From Melastoma dodecandrum (Eukaryota > Streptophyta > Magnoliopsida > Myrtales > Melastomataceae): 64,000 bases of DNA. A program made the position numbers and the translations under genes. The notes below the pieces were generated by a model that searched no databases, was not told the origin of the DNA, and worked only from the letters and a program-made list of their open reading frames with translations. Shown here in pieces: positions 44,667-56,489 of the stretch (position 1 is the stretch's first letter; every line of letters starts with the position of its first letter). The stretch covers positions 3,564,001 to 3,628,000 of the forward strand of contig JARUPY010000398.1 of assembly GCA_029817715.1 (NCBI GenBank), in the 5' to 3' direction.

Positions 44667-47600
44667 TCAGGCGAGGATGCCCTTCATCGTCTGCGCCTTC
44701 TCGCGGACGAGGTCCGCCTTGTCCGCGTAGCGCTCGGCGACCCCGGCGCCGAGGTGCCGCTCGGCCATCGTTTTTTCCAGGGCGTCGTTGTCGCTGAGCG
44801 CGCCCGTGGCCAGCCCGATCACATGGTCGGCGAGCTCGTTGACGGTGAAGCTGCTGGCGGTCGTCGAGAGGGGTGCGTTGAGAGTGAACCTCTCTTCCAG
44901 GCCCATCGCGAGTTCGACGGCCATCAGCGAGTCGAGACCGATCTCCGACAAAGGCGTCGTCTTTGCGACGTCTTCGCGCGGCAGCCGAAGCACGCGTGCG
45001 ATCTCATCGCCGATCAAACCGCCGATGGTTTTGCGCGCCTCCTCGGGCGAGGTCTGCGCAACAAGGGCTGCGATGTCGATCTTCTTCGTGTCGCTCGCGA
45101 CCGTCTCGCCCTCGCTCATGAGCTTGCGATACGCCGGCGCCGTCAGCACCGCGAGGTGCTGGCGGGCGGCGCTCCAGTTGATGGGTGCGATGGCGACCAC
45201 GGCGTCGTCCGGCACGTGGGACGGCAGCGCCAGGACGTCGGCCATTGCCCGAAGCGCGTCCTGCGCCAGCATGCCCTTGATGCCGACGCGGCTCGCCAGC
45301 GCCTCGCGCGTCGCGTCCGATCGGGCGAGGATGCCGACGTCCTCGAGCGCCCCCCAGGCGATGGCGAGGGCCGGCAGGCCGGCCTTGCGCCGGCGCCGCG
45401 CGAGGCCCTCGAGGTAGCCGTTGGTCGCCACATAGGCCGCCTGGCCCGGATTGCCGATCAGCGTCGTCGCCGAGGAATAGAGCACGAAATAGTCGAGCCG
45501 CATCTCCCGCGTCAGGCGGTCGAGGAGATCCGCGCCGGTGACCTTCGGGCGCAGGACGCGTTCCATCCGCTCGGCGTCGAGATTTGCGACGAGGGCGTCG
45601 TCGAGCACCATCGCCGCATGGATGACGCCGGCCAGCGGCGGCAGGTCACGGCCGAAGCGTGCGAAGAGCGCTTCCAGCGCCTCCTTGTCGGTGATGTCGA
45701 GCGCTTCGGCGCGCACCCGGACACCCTGCGCGGCCAATGCGGCGATGGCTTCGCGCGCGGCATCGCTGGCGGCGCCGCTGCGGCCGACGAGCATGAGGTT
45801 TCGGGCGCCGCGCTCGGCGAGCCAGCGCGCCGTCTCGAGCCCGAAGCCGCCGAAGCCGCCGGTGACGAGATGCATCTTGTCGGGGGCGATCGGGAAGCTG
45901 CGCCGCTGTCGAAGGGTGATGTCCGAGAGTTTCGGAGGGCGCACGACGAGCTTGCCGACATGGCCGGCCTGCTGCATCAGCCGGAACGCCTCCACCGTCT
46001 CGACCGCATCGAAGGCGCGGTAGGGCAGCGGCGTCAGCTCGCCGCTCGCAAAGAGCCGCGTGACGGAGCGCATCAGCAGCTTGCTGGTCGCGGGGTCCTC
46101 GATGAGCAGCTGGTCGAGGTCGACGCCGAAATAGGAGAGGTTGCGCCGGAAGGGGCGCAGCCCGATGTGCGTGTTCGCGACATAGTCGCGCTTGCCAAGC
46201 TCCACGAAGCGGCCGAAGGGCCGCAGCACCGCGATGGAGCGCTCCATCGCCTCGCCGCTCAGGCTGTTGACGACGACGGCGACGCCGTCGCCCGTCACGG
46301 TGCGGACGTCTTCCGCAAAGGCATTGGAGCGGCTGTCGAAGGCGTGCTCCGCGCCCAACGCGCACAGGAGCGCCCGGCGCTCGGCGGAGCCCGCCGTCGC
46401 GATGACACGCGCCCCACGCCACCGTGCGATCTGGATGGCCGCCAGGCCAACGCCGCCGGCCCCGCCATGGATCAGCACCCATTCCTGCGGCTTCAGCCGG
46501 GCGCAGATCATCAGGGCATGATAGGCCGTGAGGAAGGCGACAGGGACCGTCGCGGCCGCCTCGAACGTGAGCTCGTTGGGGATCGGCGCAACGACGACGG
46601 CGGGCGTCGTCACATGCGTCGAGAAGGCGTTCTTGGCGAAGGCCATCACCCGGTCGCCGGGTTTGAGGTTGCGGACCGCGGCGCCAACACGTTCGACGCG
46701 TCCGGCGCATTCGAGGCCGAGCGTCGGACCGGCAAAACCGTGCTCCAGAATTTCTTCCGGCAACAGGCCCAGCCCGAACATCACATCGCGAAAGTTGAGG
46801 CCGACCGCGCCGACGCTGATCTCGACGTCGTTCGGGCCCGGTGCCTGCCGAGGCACCGCGTCCCAATGGATGCGGTCGAAGCCGGCGCCGTCGCCGCGCT
46901 TGAGCCGCGCCGCCTCGACGCGGCCGCCCCGGCCGCGATCGTGCGCGGACCCGGTGACGAAGCGCACGACCCGCGTGCCGCTCGAGGCGATCAGAATCTC
47001 CGTCTCGTCGCTGCCCGCGAGCACGAGGTCGCGCAGGCGCGGCGCGAGCGCCTCGGCCGGAATATCGGGAGCCACGTCCACGCGCCGCAGGTCGATGTGC
47101 GGCGTCTCGTTCGCCAGCGTCCGCGAGAAGGCCCAAAGACCGTTCGCGACATCTCCGGAGGGCTCGCCCGAGGCGTAGATCGCGCCCGACGTGACGAGCC
47201 AGACGGTCGTCGCCTGCTGCCCGAGGTCGGCGATGATCTGGCGCAGATGAAGGCACGCATCGAGCAGCGATTTCGCGGGCGCCGCGCCGTCGTGGCCGAG
47301 CGCGAGCACCATCACGAAGGCGGGTGCCTCGCCGGTGGGGACGCCGACCGGTTCGCCGTCCGGCACGATCGATACATGCAAGCCGCTGCTCGCCAGCAAC
47401 GTCGCGATGGCGGTGGGGCGCGCCTCGTCGATCGGGTCGCCGAGGCCGACGAGCAACGCCGTGCCCGTTCCCTCCAGCGCCGCCCGTTCGCCGTCCGCCT
47501 CGGCCGTGAGCAGCAGGCCCGTGCCGGCTTCGGTGGCGACGGGCGCCACCTTGGGGTCGGAGAGACCGATGGCCAGCAGCGTGTCGAGCCAGTCCGCCTC

Positions 47601-50600
47601 GCTGACCGACTGGCCGTCGTAGCCGCGATCGCCGTCGGACAGGCAGGCGTCGAGCCCGAGGACCAGACTGCGGAAGAAGGAGGGCTGCGGCTCGACGGCG
47701 ACGAGCAGCGCGCCGCGCGCCATCGCCCGCCGCACGCCGGCCCAGAAGCCCGGCAGGCGCCTGTAGCGGTAGAGGGCGTCGGCCGCGACGACGAAGTCGA
47801 AGGTGCTGCCGCCGAGATCCTCGATTTTCTCCACGCAGACGATGTCGCTGCCGTTCGCCAGCGTCATCCGCGCCCGCTCGAGGCGCCGCCGATCGGGATC
47901 GAGGATCGTGAGGCGGGCCTGGTGCAGCTCGGCGAATTGCGCGCAGAGCGTGCTGAGCGGCCCGAAGCCGATCTGCAGGATGCGCATCGCGCGATCGGCC
48001 GGCCAGGCCGGCACCGAGCGGCGCAGGAGATCGACGACATAGGCCGAGAAGCCCTGCGCCTGGCTCGAGCCGAGTTCGAGCCCGTCGAGAACCTTCGCGC
48101 TCAGCGGGCGCTTCAACGCATCGCCCTTGTTGGCGAGGATCGCATCGATCGCGGTGATCGCGCTCGCGGCGACGAGCAATTCGGCCGACAGGCTCTGATG
48201 CTCGCTGACGATCGTGCGCAGGATCTCGTCCGGCGCCGGAAGTTCGATGTCGGGATCGATGTGGCGGCCGAGCCGGTCCTTGTGGCAGAGGCCCGAGCGA
48301 TCGAGCGCAACGAGCATGTCCTCGAGCCAGGGTTTGACCTTCGCCGGGAGGCGGCCCGTGGTGACGAGGGCCTCGACGTCGATGAAATTTGCTGTCGCGA
48401 GATCGCGTGCCGTCTGCAGCGCGAGCGACGTCGCCCAACCCTCGAGGAGGACGAAGTCTTCCGTCATCTGCGCGGGTTCGCTCGCCACGCCGCGCCGGAT
48501 GACCTGAAGGCTCATGTCGCCGCGCTGCTGGCGCGAGGCCGTCGGCTCGCCGGCGAGCACGGACGTTCGGTAGATCATCTGCTTGACGACGTCCGCGCCG
48601 CGCGACGTGCGGATCGCCTGGAAACGGGCGTCGCGCATGAACACGACAATTTCGCCGTCCGCGTCCATCAGAAGGAAATTGGCGAGGATGATGCGCTCGT
48701 CGCGGCGCAGGACGTCGATGCGCGCCTTATGGAAGGTGCGCCCGGGCTTGCGCAGCATGATCTCGCCGAACCGCACGGGGACGTAGGCCGTGCCGTGCAC
48801 GGCATCGCGCAGGCTCGAGAAGATGAGCACGAGCGCGTGGAAGCACGAATCGAGGCGCGCGGGATCGATGCCGAAGGCGGGGTCCGCCGGCTCGTCGGTG
48901 AGTTCGAGCGCGATCCGGTCCGGGCGCACGGCCGCGGCCGTCGCGAGCTTGCGGAACGTCGGGCCGTATTGCAGGCCGGCGCGATCGGCCATGGCGTAGA
49001 TTTCGGCGCCCGTCACGGGATGCGAGGGCGACAGCGGCGCGTGATCCTCCGGCTCGGGAAGCGCGCCGACGGTTGGATCGCGGAGGATTTTCGCGGTCGC
49101 GTGCACCTGCCACGGCGTCTGGCCGAGGCGCGGCCGACTCGCGATCTCGAGCTGGTTGCCGATCGGCGAGAGGCGGCACACCACTTCGCGCGCCGCGTCG
49201 GGACTGAGCTGCATGGGGCTCGAAATCTCGAGGTCGGCCACCGTGGCCTGCTCGGTCCCGAGCCAGTCGCGTGCGACGGCGAGCGCCATTTCCGCGAAGG
49301 CGGCGCCCGGCAGGATCGCGCGCCCATCGACGCAATGGTCGGCCAGCGAGGGGTGAAGCGTCGTGTCGAGCGCGCTATGCCATTCCAGCCTGTCCGTGCC
49401 ATATCGCGCGCCGATCAGCGGGTGCCACGCGCCCGCACGGATCAGCGCGGAAGCCTCGCTCGTCTCGGCGGTCTGGTAGGTCTTGCGCTGCCAGGGATAG
49501 TGCGGAAGCGCGACCCGCGCCGCCGGATCGATGTGGCCGAAGACGCGCGTCGCGTCGACCGTCGCGCCGCGCGTCAGCGCCGTCGCGACCGCCAGTTTGA
49601 TCGGGTCGCAGCCCCTGTCGCGCTTTTCGAGCGCGCCGAGCGTCGCGATCCGCGTCACGCGCTCGTCGATCGTATCGTTGACGTGCGTGAGCAGGGTGGC
49701 GTTCGGCCCGATCTCGACGAAGATCCGCGCCCCGGCCGCGACCGCGGCGGTGACGGCCTCCGAGAAGCGCACCGGCTCGCGCACGTTGCGCCACCAGTAA
49801 TCGGCCTTCGGCGCGCCGCCCTCCCAGAGCTTGCCGGTCACCGACGAAATGAAGGGGATCGAGGGGGCACGCTGCTCCAGATCGGCCAGCGAGCGCAGCA
49901 GCGGCCGCCTCACCGGCCCCATCAGCGCACTGTGGAAGGGATAGGCGAGATCGAGCTTGCGAATGCGCGCCTGATGTTGGCGCGCGAGGTCCGACAGGCG
50001 GGCGATGTCCTCGACAGGCCCCGAGACGGTGAAGGCGCGGGGCGAATTGTAGGCCGCGATCTCGACGTCCGGCAGCTCGCTCAGAATCTGCCGGACGACG
50101 TCGAGGCCGGCGATGATCACCGCCATGCCGCCGTGGCCGTTGGTCAGCTCCTGGTGCAGGCTGCGGGCGAAGATCGTACGCAGCGCATTGGAGGTGTCGA
50201 GGATGCCGGCCGCCTCCGCCGCCGCGACTTCGCCGACGCTGTGCCCGAGCGTCAACGAGGGCCGCAGACCCGCCTCGCGCAGCGCCACCACGGTCGCGGA
50301 CTGGATGGCGAACAGCAGCGGCTGGGAAATCTGCGTGAGTTCGAGCTTGGTCGCGAGGTCGGGTGCCCGCAGCGTCTCGACGATCGACCAGCCGGCGATC
50401 TCCGCGAACTCTTCGGAGATCGCGTCGAGCCTGTCGCGGAAGATCGCGCTGTGCTCGTAGGCGGCAAGGCCCATGCCGGCGAACTGGCTGCCGTTGCCGG
50501 AGAAGACGAAGGCGACGGGCGCCCCACGCGCGACAGCCGTGCCCCGCGCGGCCTCGACGACCTCCTGCTCCTCGTCGCAGAGGCGCTCCAGGATATCCGC

Positions 50601-52103
50601 CATCGCGCCGGGCTCGCGCATCGGCAAGACGAGGCGGTGGGGAAGACGGTCGCGGCGCTGGCCCGTCGCGGCGGCCAGGACATCCGCCTCGGCGGGATCG
50701 GCGTCGCGCAGACGCAGAGCATAGTCGGACGCGAGCGCGCTGAGCGCGCCGCGGCTGTGCGCCGACAGAACGAGGTAGCCCGGCGCGGTCGTCGGCGCGG
50801 CGATGCGGCGCGGCGCCGTGCCGTCCGCGAGGACGACATGCGCATTGGTGCCGCCGAACCCGAAGGAATTGACGCCCGCGAGCCGCGGATCCCCGTCGCG
50901 CGGCGCGAGCGGCGTCAGCTCTCGCGCAACCTCGAGGTTCAGCTCCGCGAAATCGATGTGCGGGGAGAGGGTCTCGCTATGGAGCGAGGCGGGCAGCGCG
51001 TCGTGTTCCAGCGCGAGCATGGCCTTCAGAACGCCGCCGAGTCCCGAGGCGGCTTCCATGTGGCCGATGTTGGTTTTGATCGAGCCGATCAGGAGCGGCG
51101 TGCGGCGCCGCTTCGCCAGCACTTCGCCGATCGCGCCGGCCTCGATCGGGTCGCCGACGGGCGTCCCGGTGCCGTGCGCCTCGATGAAGGCGATGTTGTC
51201 GAGATCGAGCTTGCGATCGATGTACAGCTTCTGAAGGAGCCGAGCCTGGAAGGTCTTGGACGGCAGCGAGATGCCGTTGGTGCGCCCGTCCGAATTGACG
51301 TCGGACGCCTCGATGAAGGCGTGCACGTGGCGCCCCGCGCGTTCGGCGGCGGCCCGCGTCTGCAGCACCAGCACGATGCCGCCTTCGGCGCGCACATAGC
51401 CGTCGGCCTGGGCGGAGAACGCCTGGCAGAGCCCGCGCTTCGACAGCATCGTGGCCTGCGAGAAGCCGATGAAGCTGTGCGGACTGAGCAGGATGTTCAC
51501 ACCGGCGACGACGGCGGTGTCGATGCGCCCGCTGCGCAGGCTCACGACCGCCTCGTTGAGCGCGACCAGCGCCGACGAGCACGCCGTGTCGATCGTGAAG
51601 CTCGGGCCGTGCAGATCGTAGATGTAGGACAGGCGATTGGAGACGATCGACAGCGTGTTGCCGGTCATCATGTATGCGTCGGCCGACGCGATATCGAGGA
51701 GGCGCAGGTTCGCGTGATCCACGGCGGAGGCGCCGACGAAGACGCCCGCCTCGCTGCCCGCGAGAAGCGAGGGCGGCACGCCGGCATCCTCGAACGCCTC
51801 CCAGGACAGTTCGAGCAGGAGCCGCTGTTGCGGATCCATCTGCTCGGCCTCGCGCGGCGACAGGCCGAAGGCGGCGGGATCGAAGCCCCAGACGTCGGGG
51901 AGGACGCCGGCGGCCCAGGTATAGCTGCGCCCGCGCTCGGCCCCGCGCGGATGGTATATCCGCTCGAGCGACCAGCGATCGGCCGGGATCCGGGAGACCG
52001 CGCACTCACCGGACGCCAGCAGAGTCCAGAGGCGATCGACGGACGGCGCGCCGGGAAGACGGCACGCACGTCCGACGATGGCAATGTCGGGCTGTTCTTT
52101 CAA
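44667..52103 (-). CDS. Highly reducing type I polyketide synthase, single module
   Basis: A 2478-residue multidomain enzyme starting at TTG. Order: KS (1-425; C175 in DTACSSA, H310, H348); AT (527-830; GHSVGE with S622, and YPFHS at 721-725); DH (893-1165; H923 in HCVDGRAILPG, D1085); methyltransferase-like region (1290-1475; ILQIGFGP); pseudo-KR (about 1540-1720); ER (1755-2055; GAGGVGLAAI); KR (2076-2310; TGGFGGFGLE, Y2224); ACP (2355-2430; S2392 in GLDSL). There is no thioesterase. All reducing domains keep their key residues. Fully reduced, possibly methylated, chains made iteratively are predicted. It ends 9 nt from regA, convergently. The alpha-oxoamine synthase gene lies 100 bp upstream on the same strand. 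Confidence 0.93.
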   Translation of the reverse strand: MKEQPDIAIVGRACRLPGAPSVDRLWTLLASGECAVSRIPADRWSLERIYHPRGAERGRSYTWAAGVLPDVWGFDPAAFGLSPREAEQMDPQQRLLLELSWEAFEDAGVPPSLLAGSEAGVFVGASAVDHANLRLLDIASADAYMMTGNTLSIVSNRLSYIYDLHGPSFTIDTACSSALVALNEAVVSLRSGRIDTAVVAGVNILLSPHSFIGFSQATMLSKRGLCQAFSAQADGYVRAEGGIVLVLQTRAAAERAGRHVHAFIEASDVNSDGRTNGISLPSKTFQARLLQKLYIDRKLDLDNIAFIEAHGTGTPVGDPIEAGAIGEVLAKRRRTPLLIGSIKTNIGHMEAASGLGGVLKAMLALEHDALPASLHSETLSPHIDFAELNLEVARELTPLAPRDGDPRLAGVNSFGFGGTNAHVVLADGTAPRRIAAPTTAPGYLVLSAHSRGALSALASDYALRLRDADPAEADVLAAATGQRRDRLPHRLVLPMREPGAMADILERLCDEEQEVVEAARGTAVARGAPVAFVFSGNGSQFAGMGLAAYEHSAIFRDRLDAISEEFAEIAGWSIVETLRAPDLATKLELTQISQPLLFAIQSATVVALREAGLRPSLTLGHSVGEVAAAEAAGILDTSNALRTIFARSLHQELTNGHGGMAVIIAGLDVVRQILSELPDVEIAAYNSPRAFTVSGPVEDIARLSDLARQHQARIRKLDLAYPFHSALMGPVRRPLLRSLADLEQRAPSIPFISSVTGKLWEGGAPKADYWWRNVREPVRFSEAVTAAVAAGARIFVEIGPNATLLTHVNDTIDERVTRIATLGALEKRDRGCDPIKLAVATALTRGATVDATRVFGHIDPAARVALPHYPWQRKTYQTAETSEASALIRAGAWHPLIGARYGTDRLEWHSALDTTLHPSLADHCVDGRAILPGAAFAEMALAVARDWLGTEQATVADLEISSPMQLSPDAAREVVCRLSPIGNQLEIASRPRLGQTPWQVHATAKILRDPTVGALPEPEDHAPLSPSHPVTGAEIYAMADRAGLQYGPTFRKLATAAAVRPDRIALELTDEPADPAFGIDPARLDSCFHALVLIFSSLRDAVHGTAYVPVRFGEIMLRKPGRTFHKARIDVLRRDERIILANFLLMDADGEIVVFMRDARFQAIRTSRGADVVKQMIYRTSVLAGEPTASRQQRGDMSLQVIRRGVASEPAQMTEDFVLLEGWATSLALQTARDLATANFIDVEALVTTGRLPAKVKPWLEDMLVALDRSGLCHKDRLGRHIDPDIELPAPDEILRTIVSEHQSLSAELLVAASAITAIDAILANKGDALKRPLSAKVLDGLELGSSQAQGFSAYVVDLLRRSVPAWPADRAMRILQIGFGPLSTLCAQFAELHQARLTILDPDRRRLERARMTLANGSDIVCVEKIEDLGGSTFDFVVAADALYRYRRLPGFWAGVRRAMARGALLVAVEPQPSFFRSLVLGLDACLSDGDRGYDGQSVSEADWLDTLLAIGLSDPKVAPVATEAGTGLLLTAEADGERAALEGTGTALLVGLGDPIDEARPTAIATLLASSGLHVSIVPDGEPVGVPTGEAPAFVMVLALGHDGAAPAKSLLDACLHLRQIIADLGQQATTVWLVTSGAIYASGEPSGDVANGLWAFSRTLANETPHIDLRRVDVAPDIPAEALAPRLRDLVLAGSDETEILIASSGTRVVRFVTGSAHDRGRGGRVEAARLKRGDGAGFDRIHWDAVPRQAPGPNDVEISVGAVGLNFRDVMFGLGLLPEEILEHGFAGPTLGLECAGRVERVGAAVRNLKPGDRVMAFAKNAFSTHVTTPAVVVAPIPNELTFEAAATVPVAFLTAYHALMICARLKPQEWVLIHGGAGGVGLAAIQIARWRGARVIATAGSAERRALLCALGAEHAFDSRSNAFAEDVRTVTGDGVAVVVNSLSGEAMERSIAVLRPFGRFVELGKRDYVANTHIGLRPFRRNLSYFGVDLDQLLIEDPATSKLLMRSVTRLFASGELTPLPYRAFDAVETVEAFRLMQQAGHVGKLVVRPPKLSDITLRQRRSFPIAPDKMHLVTGGFGGFGLETARWLAERGARNLMLVGRSGAASDAAREAIAALAAQGVRVRAEALDITDKEALEALFARFGRDLPPLAGVIHAAMVLDDALVANLDAERMERVLRPKVTGADLLDRLTREMRLDYFVLYSSATTLIGNPGQAAYVATNGYLEGLARRRRKAGLPALAIAWGALEDVGILARSDATREALASRVGIKGMLAQDALRAMADVLALPSHVPDDAVVAIAPINWSAARQHLAVLTAPAYRKLMSEGETVASDTKKIDIAALVAQTSPEEARKTIGGLIGDEIARVLRLPREDVAKTTPLSEIGLDSLMAVELAMGLEERFTLNAPLSTTASSFTVNELADHVIGLATGALSDNDALEKTMAERHLGAGVAERYADKADLVREKAQTMKGILA

Positions 52104-52203
52104 AGGCGCGCTTCGACTTGTGTCGACGGATGTCAGGGTGTCGGCAATCGTTGACTTGGATAATGAGACGATTTCAAGCCCGGCAGGTGTGTACGACTTC
52201 GCC

Positions 52204-53562
52204 TCACGTGGTCAGCGGCAGCGAAGCGGGGCCGGCGCTCGCACGCCCCACGCTCTCCGCGATCGTTTGGATGGTCTGCGTGATCTGGTCCGGCGTGTGC
52301 TCGCACGACACGAAGAAGCGCAGCCGAGCGTGACGTTCCGGCACAGCGGGATGGATGATGGGCTGGACGTTGATGCCCTTGTCGAACAGATGCTGCGCGA
52401 GCGTGCCCGCAGCGAGCGAGCTGTGCACGACGATCGGCACGATCGCGTGGCCCTCGCTCGTGCCGACATCGAGCTTGCGCGCCTTGGCCTGCGTCCAGAA
52501 CAGGGCCCCGTTGCGCTGGAGGCGCGCCACCCGCTCGGGCTCGCGATGCAGGAGCCGCAACGCCATCAGCGCGGCCGCGGCGAGCGGCGGCGGCATGCCG
52601 ACGCTGTAGACGAAGCCGCCGGACATGCACTTGAGGAACTCGACGAGGAGGCGCGAGCCGGCGATGTAGCCGCCGCAGCCCGCCAGAGTCTTCGACATCG
52701 TGCCCATCCAGATGTCGACCTCGGACGGCGCCACGCCGGCCTGCTCGAAGATGCCGCGGCCGGTCTCGCCGAGCGTTCCGAGGCCGTGCGCCTCGTCGAT
52801 CATCAGCCAAGCGCCGTGACGCGACTTCGCCTCGACGAGCGCCGCCAGATCGCAGCAATCGCCATCCATGCTGTAGAGGCCCTCGGCGACGATCAGCACG
52901 CGCTCGTATTGCGCGCGGCACGCGCTGAGGATGCGATCAAGCGCCACGACGTCGTTGTGAGGGAAGGAGCGGCGCGCGGCTCCCGAGAGCGTCGCGCCCA
53001 TGACGACGGAATTGTGCACGAGCGCGTCGTGGATCACGAGGTCCCTCGCGCCGACGAGCGCGCCGATCGCGCTCACGTTGGTCGCGTGACCGCTGACGAA
53101 GGTCACCGCATCTTCCTGGCCGTAGTGGTCGGCGAGCGCGCCTTCGAGTTCGCGGTGGATCGGCCGCTCGCCGGCGACGAGACGGCTCGCCGAGCACGAG
53201 GTGCCGTACCGCGTGATGGCTTCGTGCGCGGCGAGCTGCACTTCGAGCCGGCCGTTGAAGCCCAGATAGTCGTAGGACGAGAAGTTCGCGTAGCTGCGGC
53301 CCGAGATCTGCGTCGTCGCGCTCGCCCGCGTCTCGTGCACGCGGAAGAACGGGTTCGTCAGGCCGATCACCTCGGCGGCGGAGCGCTGCAGCTTGAGCTC
53401 CTGCATGCCCGGCAGCGTCGAGAAGTCGGTGCTCGCGGCGTAGGGGTTGAGATCGCGGTCGGAGCTGCGGACGGCGTCACGTTCGGCGTTCAATCTGCGG
53501 GCGACGATATCCTGAAGAGCGCCGCGGCGATTGTCCTGCCGGTCGACGACATTGCGCTTCAT
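52204..53562 (-). CDS. Alpha-oxoamine synthase (PLP-dependent, AONS/SPT/KBL family)
   Basis: A 452-residue fold-type I enzyme. The start at 53562 has AGAGG upstream; further in-frame Mets upstream give unlikely extensions. Motifs are YDYLGFNG, HNSVVMGA, the PLP contacts D256 and H259 in MIDEAHGLG, and the Schiff-base Lys K291 in TMSKTLAGCGGYI. About 85 residues precede the core. Members condense an amino acid with an acyl thioester with loss of CO2, giving a 2-amino-ketone. Next to a PKS lacking a thioesterase, the likely role is off-loading the polyketide as a sphingoid-like amino-ketone, as in fumonisin synthesis. The amino acid used cannot be read from sequence. Confidence 0.9.
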   Translation of the reverse strand: MKRNVVDRQDNRRGALQDIVARRLNAERDAVRSSDRDLNPYAASTDFSTLPGMQELKLQRSAAEVIGLTNPFFRVHETRASATTQISGRSYANFSSYDYLGFNGRLEVQLAAHEAITRYGTSCSASRLVAGERPIHRELEGALADHYGQEDAVTFVSGHATNVSAIGALVGARDLVIHDALVHNSVVMGATLSGAARRSFPHNDVVALDRILSACRAQYERVLIVAEGLYSMDGDCCDLAALVEAKSRHGAWLMIDEAHGLGTLGETGRGIFEQAGVAPSEVDIWMGTMSKTLAGCGGYIAGSRLLVEFLKCMSGGFVYSVGMPPPLAAAALMALRLLHREPERVARLQRNGALFWTQAKARKLDVGTSEGHAIVPIVVHSSLAAGTLAQHLFDKGINVQPIIHPAVPERHARLRFFVSCEHTPDQITQTIQTIAESVGRASAGPASLPLTT

Positions 53563-53963
53563 GCGACCTCTGTGTCCGCTTTTGCGATGCACCCAACGGG
53601 GCTCGAAATGGCTGAAGAAACTGTTAACGCACCGTCCGGTAGGTTGCAGCACGGCGAGGTAAGGCAACCTCTGTAATCCATAGGCCGGCGCGCCACGATG
53701 GTAGATCGGCAACACCCGGGGACTTCTTGCATGGTGGGAGGAAGGCGGAAAAGCGGTCGGATTGTGCTCGCGTCCGCGGGCCATTCGCCGGATGATCGCG
53801 GCATTCTCCTTCAAGCGGTTGGGAACGCTCTCGTTTCTGCGACGTCGCCGGCTGCCACGGCCTCGCCCAGGTGGAATGATGTTCTATGGGTTCTGGCCCG
53901 GCGGGGGGTGTCCTCCCGTGCCCGTGCCGTGCAAGATGACGCTTCGCTTCGTCCGAGGCCCGT
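53563..53963. promoter_or_regulatory. Divergent promoter region of the PKS-AOS and phosphatidyltransferase genes
   Basis: A 401-bp gap between divergent genes. A 7-bp inverted repeat (AGGTTGC at 53641-53647 and GCAACCT at 53664-53670, 16-nt loop) sits about 80-110 bp upstream of the AOS start and could be an operator. I saw no clear -35/-10 pair. Short open frames here do not look coding. Confidence 0.4.
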
Positions 53964-54743
53964 ATGACGCTTGTGAGTGCTGCGACGCAGCATCAGTCGT
54001 TCAAGACGACGCGGGTGCAACGCAACGTCGTCGCGCGCGGCGAGCGCGCGGTGCTCGACTGGCTCTGCGAGCGCATGCCGCCAGGCATGACGCCGGACGG
54101 ACTGACGGTGATCGGCGTCTGCGGCGCACTCATCGTTCTGGCGGGCTACGTCGCGAGCCGTTGGAACCCGGCCTTCCTGTGGCTCGCGAGCCTCGGCTTC
54201 GTCGTGCATTGGTTTGGTGATTCGCTCGACGGCAGTCTGGCGCGTCATCGCCGCAGCGAGCGGCCGATCTACGGCTATTTCCTCGATCATACGGTCGATG
54301 CGATCTGCAACTTGATGATCATGATCGGGCTCGGCCTGACCCGACATGTGCGCATGGACGTCGCGCTCTTCGCACTCATCGGTTATTATCTGCTCTGCAT
54401 CTACGTCTTCATCAACAATCATTTGTCGGGCGTCTTCCGCCTCTCGTTTCTCGGCTTCGGTCCGACGGAATTGCGTCTCGGTCTCATCGCCCTCAACGTC
54501 GCGATCTACGTCTTCGGCGTTCAAACGTTCGCGATCGGCGGCGAGACGGCTTCGGTCTACGACGTCCTGCTCTTCGCCGTCGGCGTCATCTTCACGGTCG
54601 TCTTCCTGATCCAGGTGATCGCCGGCATTCGAATGCTTCGCGATCCGGCGCACAGCGGCGCCGCCGCGAAGACCGCGGTGCTCTCGAAGGGCACGCGTGC
54701 CATTCAGAGCCGATCGAGAAACGTCTCCAGGGCGGCGAAATAA
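53964..54743 (+). CDS. CDP-alcohol phosphatidyltransferase family protein
   Basis: A 259-residue membrane protein with the family motif D-x2-DG-x2-AR-x9-G-x3-D-x3-D complete: D86, D89, G90, A93, R94, G104, D108, D112 (GDSLDGSLARHRRSERPIYG then YFLDHTVD). About five or six helices surround it. Members transfer a phospho-alcohol group from a CDP-alcohol to an acceptor, as in phosphatidylglycerol, phosphatidylinositol or phosphocholine lipid synthesis. Next to the PKS-AOS pair a head-group role on the new lipid is plausible. It overlaps the convergent glycosyltransferase gene by 40 nt. Confidence 0.88.
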   Translation: MTLVSAATQHQSFKTTRVQRNVVARGERAVLDWLCERMPPGMTPDGLTVIGVCGALIVLAGYVASRWNPAFLWLASLGFVVHWFGDSLDGSLARHRRSERPIYGYFLDHTVDAICNLMIMIGLGLTRHVRMDVALFALIGYYLLCIYVFINNHLSGVFRLSFLGFGPTELRLGLIALNVAIYVFGVQTFAIGGETASVYDVLLFAVGVIFTVVFLIQVIAGIRMLRDPAHSGAAAKTAVLSKGTRAIQSRSRNVSRAAK

Positions 54744-55984
54744 TCCGACCACTCTCGCCGCCGTGCGCGAGGCGGTGCGCTCGGACGCGGCGTGTGCACG
54801 TGGTGGAGGATCGCCTCCATCCAAGCCTCGCCGTCGAGGGGCGAAATCAACGTCGGCTTCGGTGCTTCGATCTCGCGGAACACGGCGATGTCCGAGGCCA
54901 GCACGGGCGCGCCGCTGGCGAGCGCCTCGTGCACCGGCAGGCCGTAGCCTTCCCCGAAGCTCGGCATCAGCACGGCGCAGGCGTTGTCGACGAGCCGCTT
55001 CAGGCTCGGCGTCGCGAGGCCGTTGACCTCGACGACGTGCTCCCGGAGTGCCGGCGCGCGCGTGATCAGATCCAGGATCGGCTGGTAGTGCCAGCCGCGC
55101 GTGCCGACGAGCACGAGCTTCGGCGCGCCCGCGCCGAGCCGGGCGACGAGGGCGCGCCATACCGCCAGGATCATCAGGTGATTCTTGCGGGGCTCGAGCG
55201 TCGCGCACATCACGAAATAGGGAATGCCTGCCAGGTCGGGCTCGATGACCCGGGCCGTCGAGAACACCGGAGCGATCGGCGTCGGTGCGACGAAGATCGG
55301 CACGTCCCTGCGCCCCAGCGTCTCGAGATGGGCGGCGAGATCGTCCGCGACGGTGCGGGTCGTCACGAGGGCCGCCGCCCCGAAACGCGCGAAATTGCGC
55401 AGCCGGGCGAGATGGCGCTCGTATTCCGCCGCGCGAAAATATTCCGGCATCTGCACGGGCAGCAGATCGTGGATGAAGAAGGCGGCGCGCACGTCCGGCC
55501 GCGCCTCGAGCCAAGTGAAGGAGGAGGCGATCCAGAGCGGGAACTGGCTGGCATTGACGTAGATCGCGTGCGGCGGCAGCGCGCCGCGCGGCTGCGCCGT
55601 GGGCAGTCCGTTGCGGCGCAGCCAGGCGGCGATCGCGGGCGGATCGACGCGCGGCGCACGGGGCGGGGCCAGCCGGCGGCGATCGGGGGCGGGACCCGGC
55701 GCGCCTTTCAGGCGCGAGACGACGTCGCGATAGATCGGGTCTTGCCCATCGGGGTCCCGCGCCTCGCCCCAGTGGCGGGCGATCCCGGCGACGGCTTGCG
55801 CGGCGGCCGGTCCGGGTATCACGCGCGCGCCGAAGCCGGTCGCCGTCGCGCCGAAGGTGCGATCCGCGTGCCCGGAGAGCAGATGACTCGCCAGCGCGTG
55901 GTCCACGCGATCGATGCCGTTCGGCGTCGCATTGAGGATGCGCGTCAGGAGACGGGTGACGTCATAGCAGACAGGGCGCCGCAT
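54704..55984 (-). CDS. GT4-type glycosyltransferase
   Basis: A 426-residue GT-B glycosyltransferase. The N-terminal acceptor domain is followed by a nucleotide-sugar domain with CATLEPRKNHLMIL, LVLVGTRGWHYQ and the ExxxxxxxE motif in PSFGEGYGLPVHEALASGAPVLASD. The LEPRKN segment is typical of GT4 mannosyltransferase-like proteins (GT family 1 in older annotation). It may glycosylate the lipid made by the neighbouring PKS-AOS genes or belong to exopolysaccharide synthesis. Its 3' end overlaps the phosphatidyltransferase gene by 40 nt on the other strand. Confidence 0.85.
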   Translation of the reverse strand: MRRPVCYDVTRLLTRILNATPNGIDRVDHALASHLLSGHADRTFGATATGFGARVIPGPAAAQAVAGIARHWGEARDPDGQDPIYRDVVSRLKGAPGPAPDRRRLAPPRAPRVDPPAIAAWLRRNGLPTAQPRGALPPHAIYVNASQFPLWIASSFTWLEARPDVRAAFFIHDLLPVQMPEYFRAAEYERHLARLRNFARFGAAALVTTRTVADDLAAHLETLGRRDVPIFVAPTPIAPVFSTARVIEPDLAGIPYFVMCATLEPRKNHLMILAVWRALVARLGAGAPKLVLVGTRGWHYQPILDLITRAPALREHVVEVNGLATPSLKRLVDNACAVLMPSFGEGYGLPVHEALASGAPVLASDIAVFREIEAPKPTLISPLDGEAWMEAILHHVHTPRPSAPPRARRREWSDYFAALETFLDRL

Positions 55985-56024: not shown

Positions 56025-56489
56025 TCAGGGCTTCAACGGCGCGAAGTCGTTGATGTCCTCGCTCTGGCGATAGGCCGGCGGGACATCGGGCGGCGTCGGG
56101 TAAAAATAGTAGTTCTGGTAGCTGATCGAATTGTCGACCACCACGGCACCGTTCGGCTGCGTCGAGAATTCGACGACCGGCACAGTGCGGCCCGGCACGT
56201 AGGGCTGGCCCTTGATCACGTCGTTGCCGTAGGAGTCCGGCGCGAAGATCTGGTCCTGCGACTTGGCGAACTGGGTCGAAGCGGACATGTACGCCTGCTG
56301 CGAGCCGGCGGAGACCGCGGTGCCCGGATCGAGCCAGCTGCGGCGGTTGACCGTCAGCGGAATACCCGATGTCGAATATTCCTCCTGTACGACCGTGACC
56401 GCATGGCGGCGGCTGCGGGCGGAGGCATCGGAGGCCACGGCCGTCACGGCCACGGCGACAGCCATGGCGGTCAAAAGCGTCGTGCGCAT
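56025..56489 (-). CDS. Exported protein of unknown function
   Basis: A 154-residue protein with a signal peptide (MRTTLLTAMAVAVAVTAVASDASA). A mature part rich in Tyr, Pro and Ser follows, with SWLDPGTAVSAGSQQAYM, DNSISYQNYYFYPTPPDVPPAYRQ and other low-complexity segments. I recognise no family. It lies 40 bp upstream of the glycosyltransferase on the same strand, so it may share a transcript. A cell-envelope location is likely. Confidence 0.7.
   Translation of the reverse strand: MRTTLLTAMAVAVAVTAVASDASARSRRHAVTVVQEEYSTSGIPLTVNRRSWLDPGTAVSAGSQQAYMSASTQFAKSQDQIFAPDSYGNDVIKGQPYVPGRTVPVVEFSTQPNGAVVVDNSISYQNYYFYPTPPDVPPAYRQSEDINDFAPLKP

Follow-up and report, generated by a model that had tools for sequence, protein, structure and literature searches.

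What product would be expected of a gene cluster in which a polyketide synthase (PKS) and an alpha-oxoamine synthase (AOS) stand beside a CDP-alcohol phosphotransferase and a glycosyltransferase of family GT4? Such a cluster occupies positions 44,667 to 55,984 of a stretch of 64,000 nucleotides (hereafter the window) of the Melastoma dodecandrum assembly GCA_029817715.1 (contig JARUPY010000398.1, positions 3,564,001 to 3,628,000). Judging from the genes and their relatives, we consider with a probability of about 60% that it encodes a dedicated PKS-type sphingolipid pathway, whose product, in this lineage, would be an envelope phospho- or glycophospho-sphingolipid and not an anchor for capsule. 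The genes with their domains and motifs, their relationships and their linkage were read directly from the data; the chemistry is a prediction. A preliminary description of the window had put forward the arrangement of PKS, AOS, divergent CDP-alcohol enzyme and GT4, which domain searches and coordinates bear out as follows:

44667..52103, minus strand: reducing type I PKS of the RkpA/WcbR/SgaA type, 2478 aa, KS-AT-DH-(degenerate MT)-ER-KR-ACP
52204..53562, minus strand: AOS of the RkpG/WcbT/SgaB type, predicted serine acyltransferase, 452 aa, start at Met85
53563..53963, no strand: 401-bp gap separating the divergent AOS and CDP-alcohol genes, which may hold a shared promoter region
53964..54743, plus strand: CDP-alcohol phosphotransferase, 259 aa, motif DSLDGSLAR...YGYFLDHTVD (Pfam, motif, PDB profile, fold)
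54704..55984, minus strand: GT4 glycosyltransferase (Pfam, NCBIfam, PDB)

The AOS gene is located upstream of the PKS gene on the same strand, at a spacing of 100 bp. The GT4 gene is on that strand too; it is convergent with the CDP-alcohol gene and overlaps it by 40 bp. Third-position GC is 0.82-0.90 across all four genes. A sigma-70 consensus scan of the 401-bp gap gave no match.

The PKS and AOS genes

Pfam identifies KS, AT, DH, ER, KR and ACP domains in the PKS and no thioesterase domain. Pfam, motifs and an alignment of 78 PKS all describe a single-module reducing enzyme without thioesterase, as in the SgaAB type discussed below. The preliminary description had listed these domains together with a methyltransferase (MT), a point that probably needs correction, and a putative pseudo-KR between MT and ER. 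The best MT match reaches 21.4 bits for a Pfam cut-off of 30, and the motif reads ILQIGFGPLS where a Gly-rich loop is expected. Most of the variants printed from the 78 aligned PKS are degenerate, and at least one (LEIAAGSG) looks closer to intact. Judging by its motif, the MT of the window is probably dead, so that a straight chain is expected and the methyl-branched chain once proposed is disfavoured. In one relative (genome G039, L158:9754-14877) the PKS frame seems to stop early, at about 1700 aa, the other three genes being present.

The AOS open reading frame (ORF) was listed at 52204-53814 on the minus strand (536 aa), with family matches starting at residues 143-176. Its closest homologues, among the best 120 matches, are mostly 450-454 aa long; in the homologue searches the 8000 (one search) or 7997 (another) candidates sharing most words were scored. 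Because of these lengths and of the alignment, the start was placed at Met85. Compared with the PDB, the AOS matches bacterial serine palmitoyltransferase (SPT) structures at 1e-61 and a chain named SphA at 3e-23. Bacterial SPT are thus far nearer than the fungal enzymes which had been taken as the nearest model, and a fungal-type cluster was ruled out as closest model by this distance. The AOS remains under every named equivalog cut-off of NCBIfam: canonical bacterial SPT models NF047600, NF047599 and NF047603 give 279.2, 265.9 and 206.3 bits for cut-offs of 640, 500 and 670.

One may ask whether the AOS is simply a BioF or KBL of primary metabolism with an incidental PKS neighbour. Automatic names do give the homologues as 8-amino-7-oxononanoate synthase, and BioF (TIGR00858) is the best NCBIfam model, yet the score of 343.2 bits is below its cut-off of 426.45. 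A quick maximum likelihood tree of 142 rows also places BioF, KBL and two SPT (4 references) apart from the 138 rows from loci, with support 99. This split is to be expected since the 138 rows were chosen by similarity to the window, and the references are on very long branches, as a program warning indicated. Of the 152 loci in which the AOS found a match, 138 supplied these rows after removal of short or identical pieces; two E. coli loci serve as references only. Moreover a PKS match is present on the AOS strand in 76 of the 80 named genome loci (absent in L022, L050, L072 and L078), and three further AOS-family places exist on the contig of the window (C128). Scores and tree rule out membership of BioF or KBL, a check named in the preliminary description, and the primary-metabolism explanation is hardly credible.

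The same gene pairing is known from experiment. According to passages of PMC12134224, PfSgaA and PfSgaB of Pseudomonas fluorescens MYb115 produce C24, C26 and C28 sphinganines, most likely leading to phosphoglycerol sphingolipids; deletion of either gene abolishes the sphinganines, and purified PfSgaB uses acyl-CoA and L-serine, almost exclusively. The same passages present SgaC, a short-chain dehydrogenase/reductase (SDR), as the presumed reductase, and count 6,101 homologous sga clusters, predominantly in Burkholderia (PMC12134224). The earlier idea that PKS and AOS together give a sphingoid base is hence supported as a prediction, and the kind of pathway, announced as uncharacterised, is already published (PMC12134224). 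The published sga primers match none of the collected loci with fewer than 5 mismatches, which indicates that none of these is MYb115. The SgaB type is represented in our comparison by a Pseudomonas plasmid relative (L004) and by RkpG; in the tree the AOS of the window, adjoining its PKS, stands apart from the four reference rows.

The CDP-alcohol phosphotransferase and its linkage to AOS

To what extent does the CDP-alcohol enzyme belong to the same pathway? The enzyme matches PF01066 with 33.9 bits (cut-off 22). CDP-alcohol phosphotransferases carry the motif pattern DxxDGxxAR...GxxxDxxxD, which is present in all 21 homologues of the clustered loci, window included. The archaetidylinositol-phosphate or phosphatidylinositol-phosphate (PIP) synthase models NF040950 and NF045883 give 44.7 and 29.2 bits, below their cut-offs of 180 and 170. 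A PDB search with a profile of 41 homologues finds CEPT1 (7e-10) and CHPT1 (2e-9 and 2e-8), with PgsA1 at 0.27. The predicted structure (mean pLDDT 85, pTM 0.80) has the CDP-alcohol family fold; Foldseek ranks CEPT1 and CHPT1 on top, and VIA-align ties PIP synthase (17.8) with CHPT1 (17.6).

His109 of the window, which follows the third Asp (D108-H109), aligns with His133 of xlCHPT1. This His occurs in 15 of the 21 homologues in loci and in at least 90% of alignment A3; the other 6 of 21 have Gln or Ser. The Glu partner of Kennedy-type enzymes was not found at its place, which is occupied by Tyr105. In the account given in parts of PMC10182977, His133 and Glu129 of CHPT1 are proposed to be catalytic, conserved in eukaryotes and absent from most bacterial enzymes. 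These residues point to a lipid hydroxyl as the acceptor but are no proof of it. The Drosophila ceramide phosphoethanolamine synthase is a precedent in the CDP-alcohol phosphotransferase superfamily.

Co-occurrence was examined in 199 genomes of one family. A CDP-alcohol homologue (E<=1e-15) is present in 46 and an AOS (E<=1e-100) in 53; both are present in 25, for 12 expected (P 3.7e-6). With a cut-off of 180 bits, which was set after seeing the list, 24 of the 27 CDP-alcohol carriers have the AOS (P 2.4e-13), the other three being G011, G013 and G201. These counts include all 56 AOS rows and 49 of the 65 CDP-alcohol rows; the other 16 are extra matches in genomes already counted, none with AOS. 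The two genes are on one contig in 24 genomes, 316 bp to 21 kb apart. In the tree the window belongs to a clade of 17 AOS rows (support 95), corresponding to 12 distinct places as five genomes appear twice. All 12 places have a CDP-alcohol gene at a distance of no more than about 2.6 kb from the AOS gene; the two genes adjoin except in L022, where they are 2.5 kb apart with a methyltransferase gene between.

We fetched 20 regions for having both genes, from the 25 such genomes. The order and orientation of the window are found in 5 of them (L158-L162); in L161 and L162 the AOS and PKS genes are separated by a GNAT-like gene. All four gene clusters are present in 11 of the 20, the GT4 cluster being loose and possibly mixing subtypes. 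The CDP-alcohol gene of L170 and L177 had been overlooked by the gene caller. Family genomes and fetched regions both place the gene set in more than one strain, which answers a doubt raised in advance, and the CDP-alcohol enzyme is likely a partner of the PKS and AOS.

This linkage bears on another explanation, in which the PKS and AOS make a secreted, specialised sphinganine-like metabolite directed at hosts or competitors, and neither the CDP-alcohol enzyme nor the GT4 is related to it. A host effect has a parallel, as MYb115 sphingolipids affect a nematode host (PMC12134224, in the passages on this strain), and 28 of the 53 AOS genomes lack a CDP-alcohol homologue. However the CDP-alcohol gene is repeatedly found in close linkage, and none of the immediate neighbours was recognised as an exporter. 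We find this explanation distinctly improbable.

GT4 and further functions

The GT4 protein matches PF13692 with 55.3 bits. Its three PDB matches are weak (24.9 bits at best) and concern inositol-phosphate and phosphatidylinositol glycosyltransferases. An SgaC-type SDR was not found in the cluster; the best non-PKS SDR match of the window, of 75 bits, is about 13 kb away. In six loci (L163, L171, L172, L173, L175 and L176) an RkpH/SgaC-like SDR gene adjoins the CDP-alcohol gene. An SDR related to that of L171 is present in all 12 genomes searched at E<=1e-30 (11 of them with at least 159 bits), the best matches being off-cluster. A weak GNAT match adjoins the AOS gene in 9 of 23 clustered loci. 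Together these GNAT-like and SDR neighbours in relatives extend the picture to N-acylation and keto reduction. Several genomes (L164-L168) have, near the AOS gene, a methyltransferase that is conserved (C6) and a GT2 akin to HpnI, the hopanoid glycosyltransferase (C7; 79 bits, cut-off 310).

Relation to capsule loci

Is the lipid rather destined for a capsule? Plasmid records with nearby PKS and AOS matches include Methylobacterium bullatum (51% and 58%) and Sinorhizobium meliloti (39% and 50%), and matches were also obtained in Rhizobium sullae, Shinella, Paraburkholderia, Caballeronia and Pseudomonas. The S. meliloti PKS, in an rkp-1-like locus, aligns over 99% of the query (2502 aa compared with 2478 aa); PKS and AOS are both homologous to RkpA and RkpG over their full length. 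The S. meliloti order is PKS, AOS, SDR, an unannotated sulfatase-fold gene, capsule protein and KpsF, which we take to be, gene by gene, rkpA, G, H, I and J. The names of the rkp cluster are as in passages of PMC7902896. The Pseudomonas plasmid locus contains PKS, AOS, four genes and an SDR, amid capsule genes; the published locus numbers of SgaB and SgaC would fit its AOS-SDR spacing. From this locus and the Burkholderia matches, SgaAB and RkpA/RkpG appear to be one family, SgaB being represented in this comparison by relatives.

In this perspective the window could contain an RkpA/RkpG orthologue making a lipid on which capsular polysaccharide is assembled or anchored, while the capsule genes would lie at another chromosomal site. 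Five annotated regions (L001, L003-L006) of the eight opened are capsule loci, in which SDR and LTA-synthase/alkaline-phosphatase-like genes accompany the capsule genes; the unannotated L002 has similar matches, and L007 and L008 have none. Among the 56 named loci that span at least 19 kb, markers of SDR, RkpI-like or capsule type were recognised in 48 at bit cut-offs of our own choice, and markers of capsule export or KpsS/C in 30. Disruption of KPS genes including rkpA alters the sensitivity of S. meliloti to peptides, and the K-antigen is described as lipid-anchored, in parts of PMC5539429. On the other hand, capsule query proteins gave no match in the 64 kb of the window beyond generic ABC and SDR similarity (the search covered the window and not the rest of the genome), nor in L158-L162, where stretches of 8-20 kb were available, and 8 of the 56 long loci have no marker at all. 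For this lineage we regard a capsule lipid as unlikely.

Other associations were visible in the collected loci. In 7 loci of Burkholderiaceae (L003, L005, L053, L060, L087, L093 and L096) PKS and AOS are separated by a gene for an LpxC-like UDP-3-O-acyl-GlcNAc deacetylase; such a deacetylase, if acting on capsule lipid, would merit attention. In Streptomyces anthocyanicus (L007:8383-13206) and Planktothrix agardhii (L008:3560-11158) the AOS match forms the C-terminal part of a larger protein that also contains a PKS, as a fusion.

Genomic context

The window sits on contig C128 (3.64 Mb). The assembly totals 373 Mb in 607 contigs, a size which suggests a mixed or host-plus-symbiont assembly. 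The named close AOS relatives are Methylobacteriaceae and Beijerinckiaceae, and the cluster host would be a bacterium of a Beijerinckiaceae-like lineage. Further copies in this assembly, 58-75% identical, are present on C112, C429, C127, C563, C470, C431 and C85. A second copy on C128 itself (G000:C128:6848-11455, compared with window 50707-55314; L010 and L009) has 94.6% DNA identity over 4.6 kb. The two copies sit close to the two ends of the contig, possibly through a large duplication or because a second strain was used in closing a circular chromosome.

The cluster is embedded in what seems to be ordinary chromosome. One flank has genes resembling lptC, lptA and lptB, along with sigma-54 and a PHB depolymerase; the other has an argC-like semialdehyde dehydrogenase and an SPFH protein. 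Behind the GT4 gene is the following feature, without Pfam match, which has a homologue in the same position in 3 of the 20 fetched regions (L158, L159 and L160):

56025..56489, minus strand: hypothetical ORF

A plus-strand ORF at 42729-44657 matches the ActR/PrrA/RegA redox response regulator in its C-terminal 173 residues; its upstream portion is probably not coding.

Proposed pathway

For the dedicated sphingolipid pathway we propose five steps. (1) Judging from its motifs, the single-module PKS would iterate and fully reduce each unit, so building up on its own ACP a long saturated acyl chain that is probably straight. (2) Since the PKS has no thioesterase, the pyridoxal phosphate enzyme would release this chain by decarboxylative condensation, most likely with L-serine as in the SgaB family, to give 3-ketosphinganine. 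(3) An SDR encoded elsewhere, for which relatives offer candidates, would reduce the ketone. (4) The CDP-alcohol phosphotransferase, its conserved His activating a lipid hydroxyl, would add a phospho-alcohol from a CDP-linked donor; linkage and active site point to the sphingoid base or its N-acyl derivative as acceptor. (5) The GT4 may add a sugar, the weakest step.

A more specific version can be put forward tentatively, as a possibility short of an even chance: a Kennedy-style bacterial phosphosphingolipid route (Beijerinckiaceae-like), in which a CDP-alcohol enzyme with the eukaryote-type His adds the head group to a PKS-made base, followed by glycosylation to an undescribed class of glycophospho-sphingolipid, the same PKS/AOS family supplying the rhizobial and related capsule lipid. 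The text available of PMC12134224 does not contain 'capsul', 'rkp', 'wcb', 'polysaccharide' or 'lipid anchor', and no article with both 'rkpA' and 'sphingolipid' was found in the literature searched, most subscription papers being outside the search; the same holds for the combination of a Kennedy-like enzyme and GT4. As a caution for a sphingoid capsule lipid, a 2005 paper, by its title, reportedly places a phospholipid anchor on the Kdo polymer of S. meliloti 1021.

The presence of SPT has served as a sign of bacterial sphingolipid production, as passages of PMC12134224 illustrate; the PKS route, published in 2025, escapes such a test. Within one family about half of the genomes with an AOS relative also have the CDP-alcohol homologue, so this lineage may own a head-group enzyme.

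Comparison with known systems

The fungal fumonisin and sphingofungin systems, cited in parts of PMC12134224, follow the same chemical logic of PKS and AOS, but the fungal AOS is far more distant than bacterial SPT and the C-methyltransferase here looks dead. The swf PKS/FAS (fatty acid synthase) of sponge symbionts is, in passages of PMC3908369, a mono-modular reducing PKS once taken as WcbR type, but its partners are of reductase and sulphotransferase type, its operon lacks an AOS and its KS stands apart from WcbR/RkpA (PMC3908369); a Swf-type PKS was set aside for lack of AOS in that operon.

The CDP-alcohol enzyme resembles CEPT1/CHPT1 by its motif, by the His beside the third Asp and by its best PDB profile matches. 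It differs by its length (259 aa compared with 380-406 aa) and by the Tyr replacing the Glu partner, and its substrate is a prediction. With RkpA/RkpG (Sinorhizobium rkp-1) and the WcbR type, the PKS shares a similar size and the same Pfam domain order except for the weak MT, whereas neither rkpH, rkpI and rkpJ nor genes of capsule export are matched in the window. Specialists are likeliest to be interested in the link to RkpA/RkpG. The apparent common family also opens the nature of the capsule lipid to testing: if this lipid is a sphingoid base, it would be visible by lipid analysis of existing kinds of mutants.

PfSgaAB(C) shares the iterative PKS and AOS gene pair and a predicted sphinganine with a phospho head group. 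Here, in contrast, the AOS precedes the PKS, no SgaC-type SDR stands beside them, and the linked genes are instead those of a CDP-alcohol phosphotransferase and a GT4. The principle of a PKS-AOS sphingolipid has thus been known since 2025; what appears to be new, as far as the literature searched goes, is that it is joined here, at a distance from capsule genes, by a GT4 and a head-group enzyme of Kennedy-like type.

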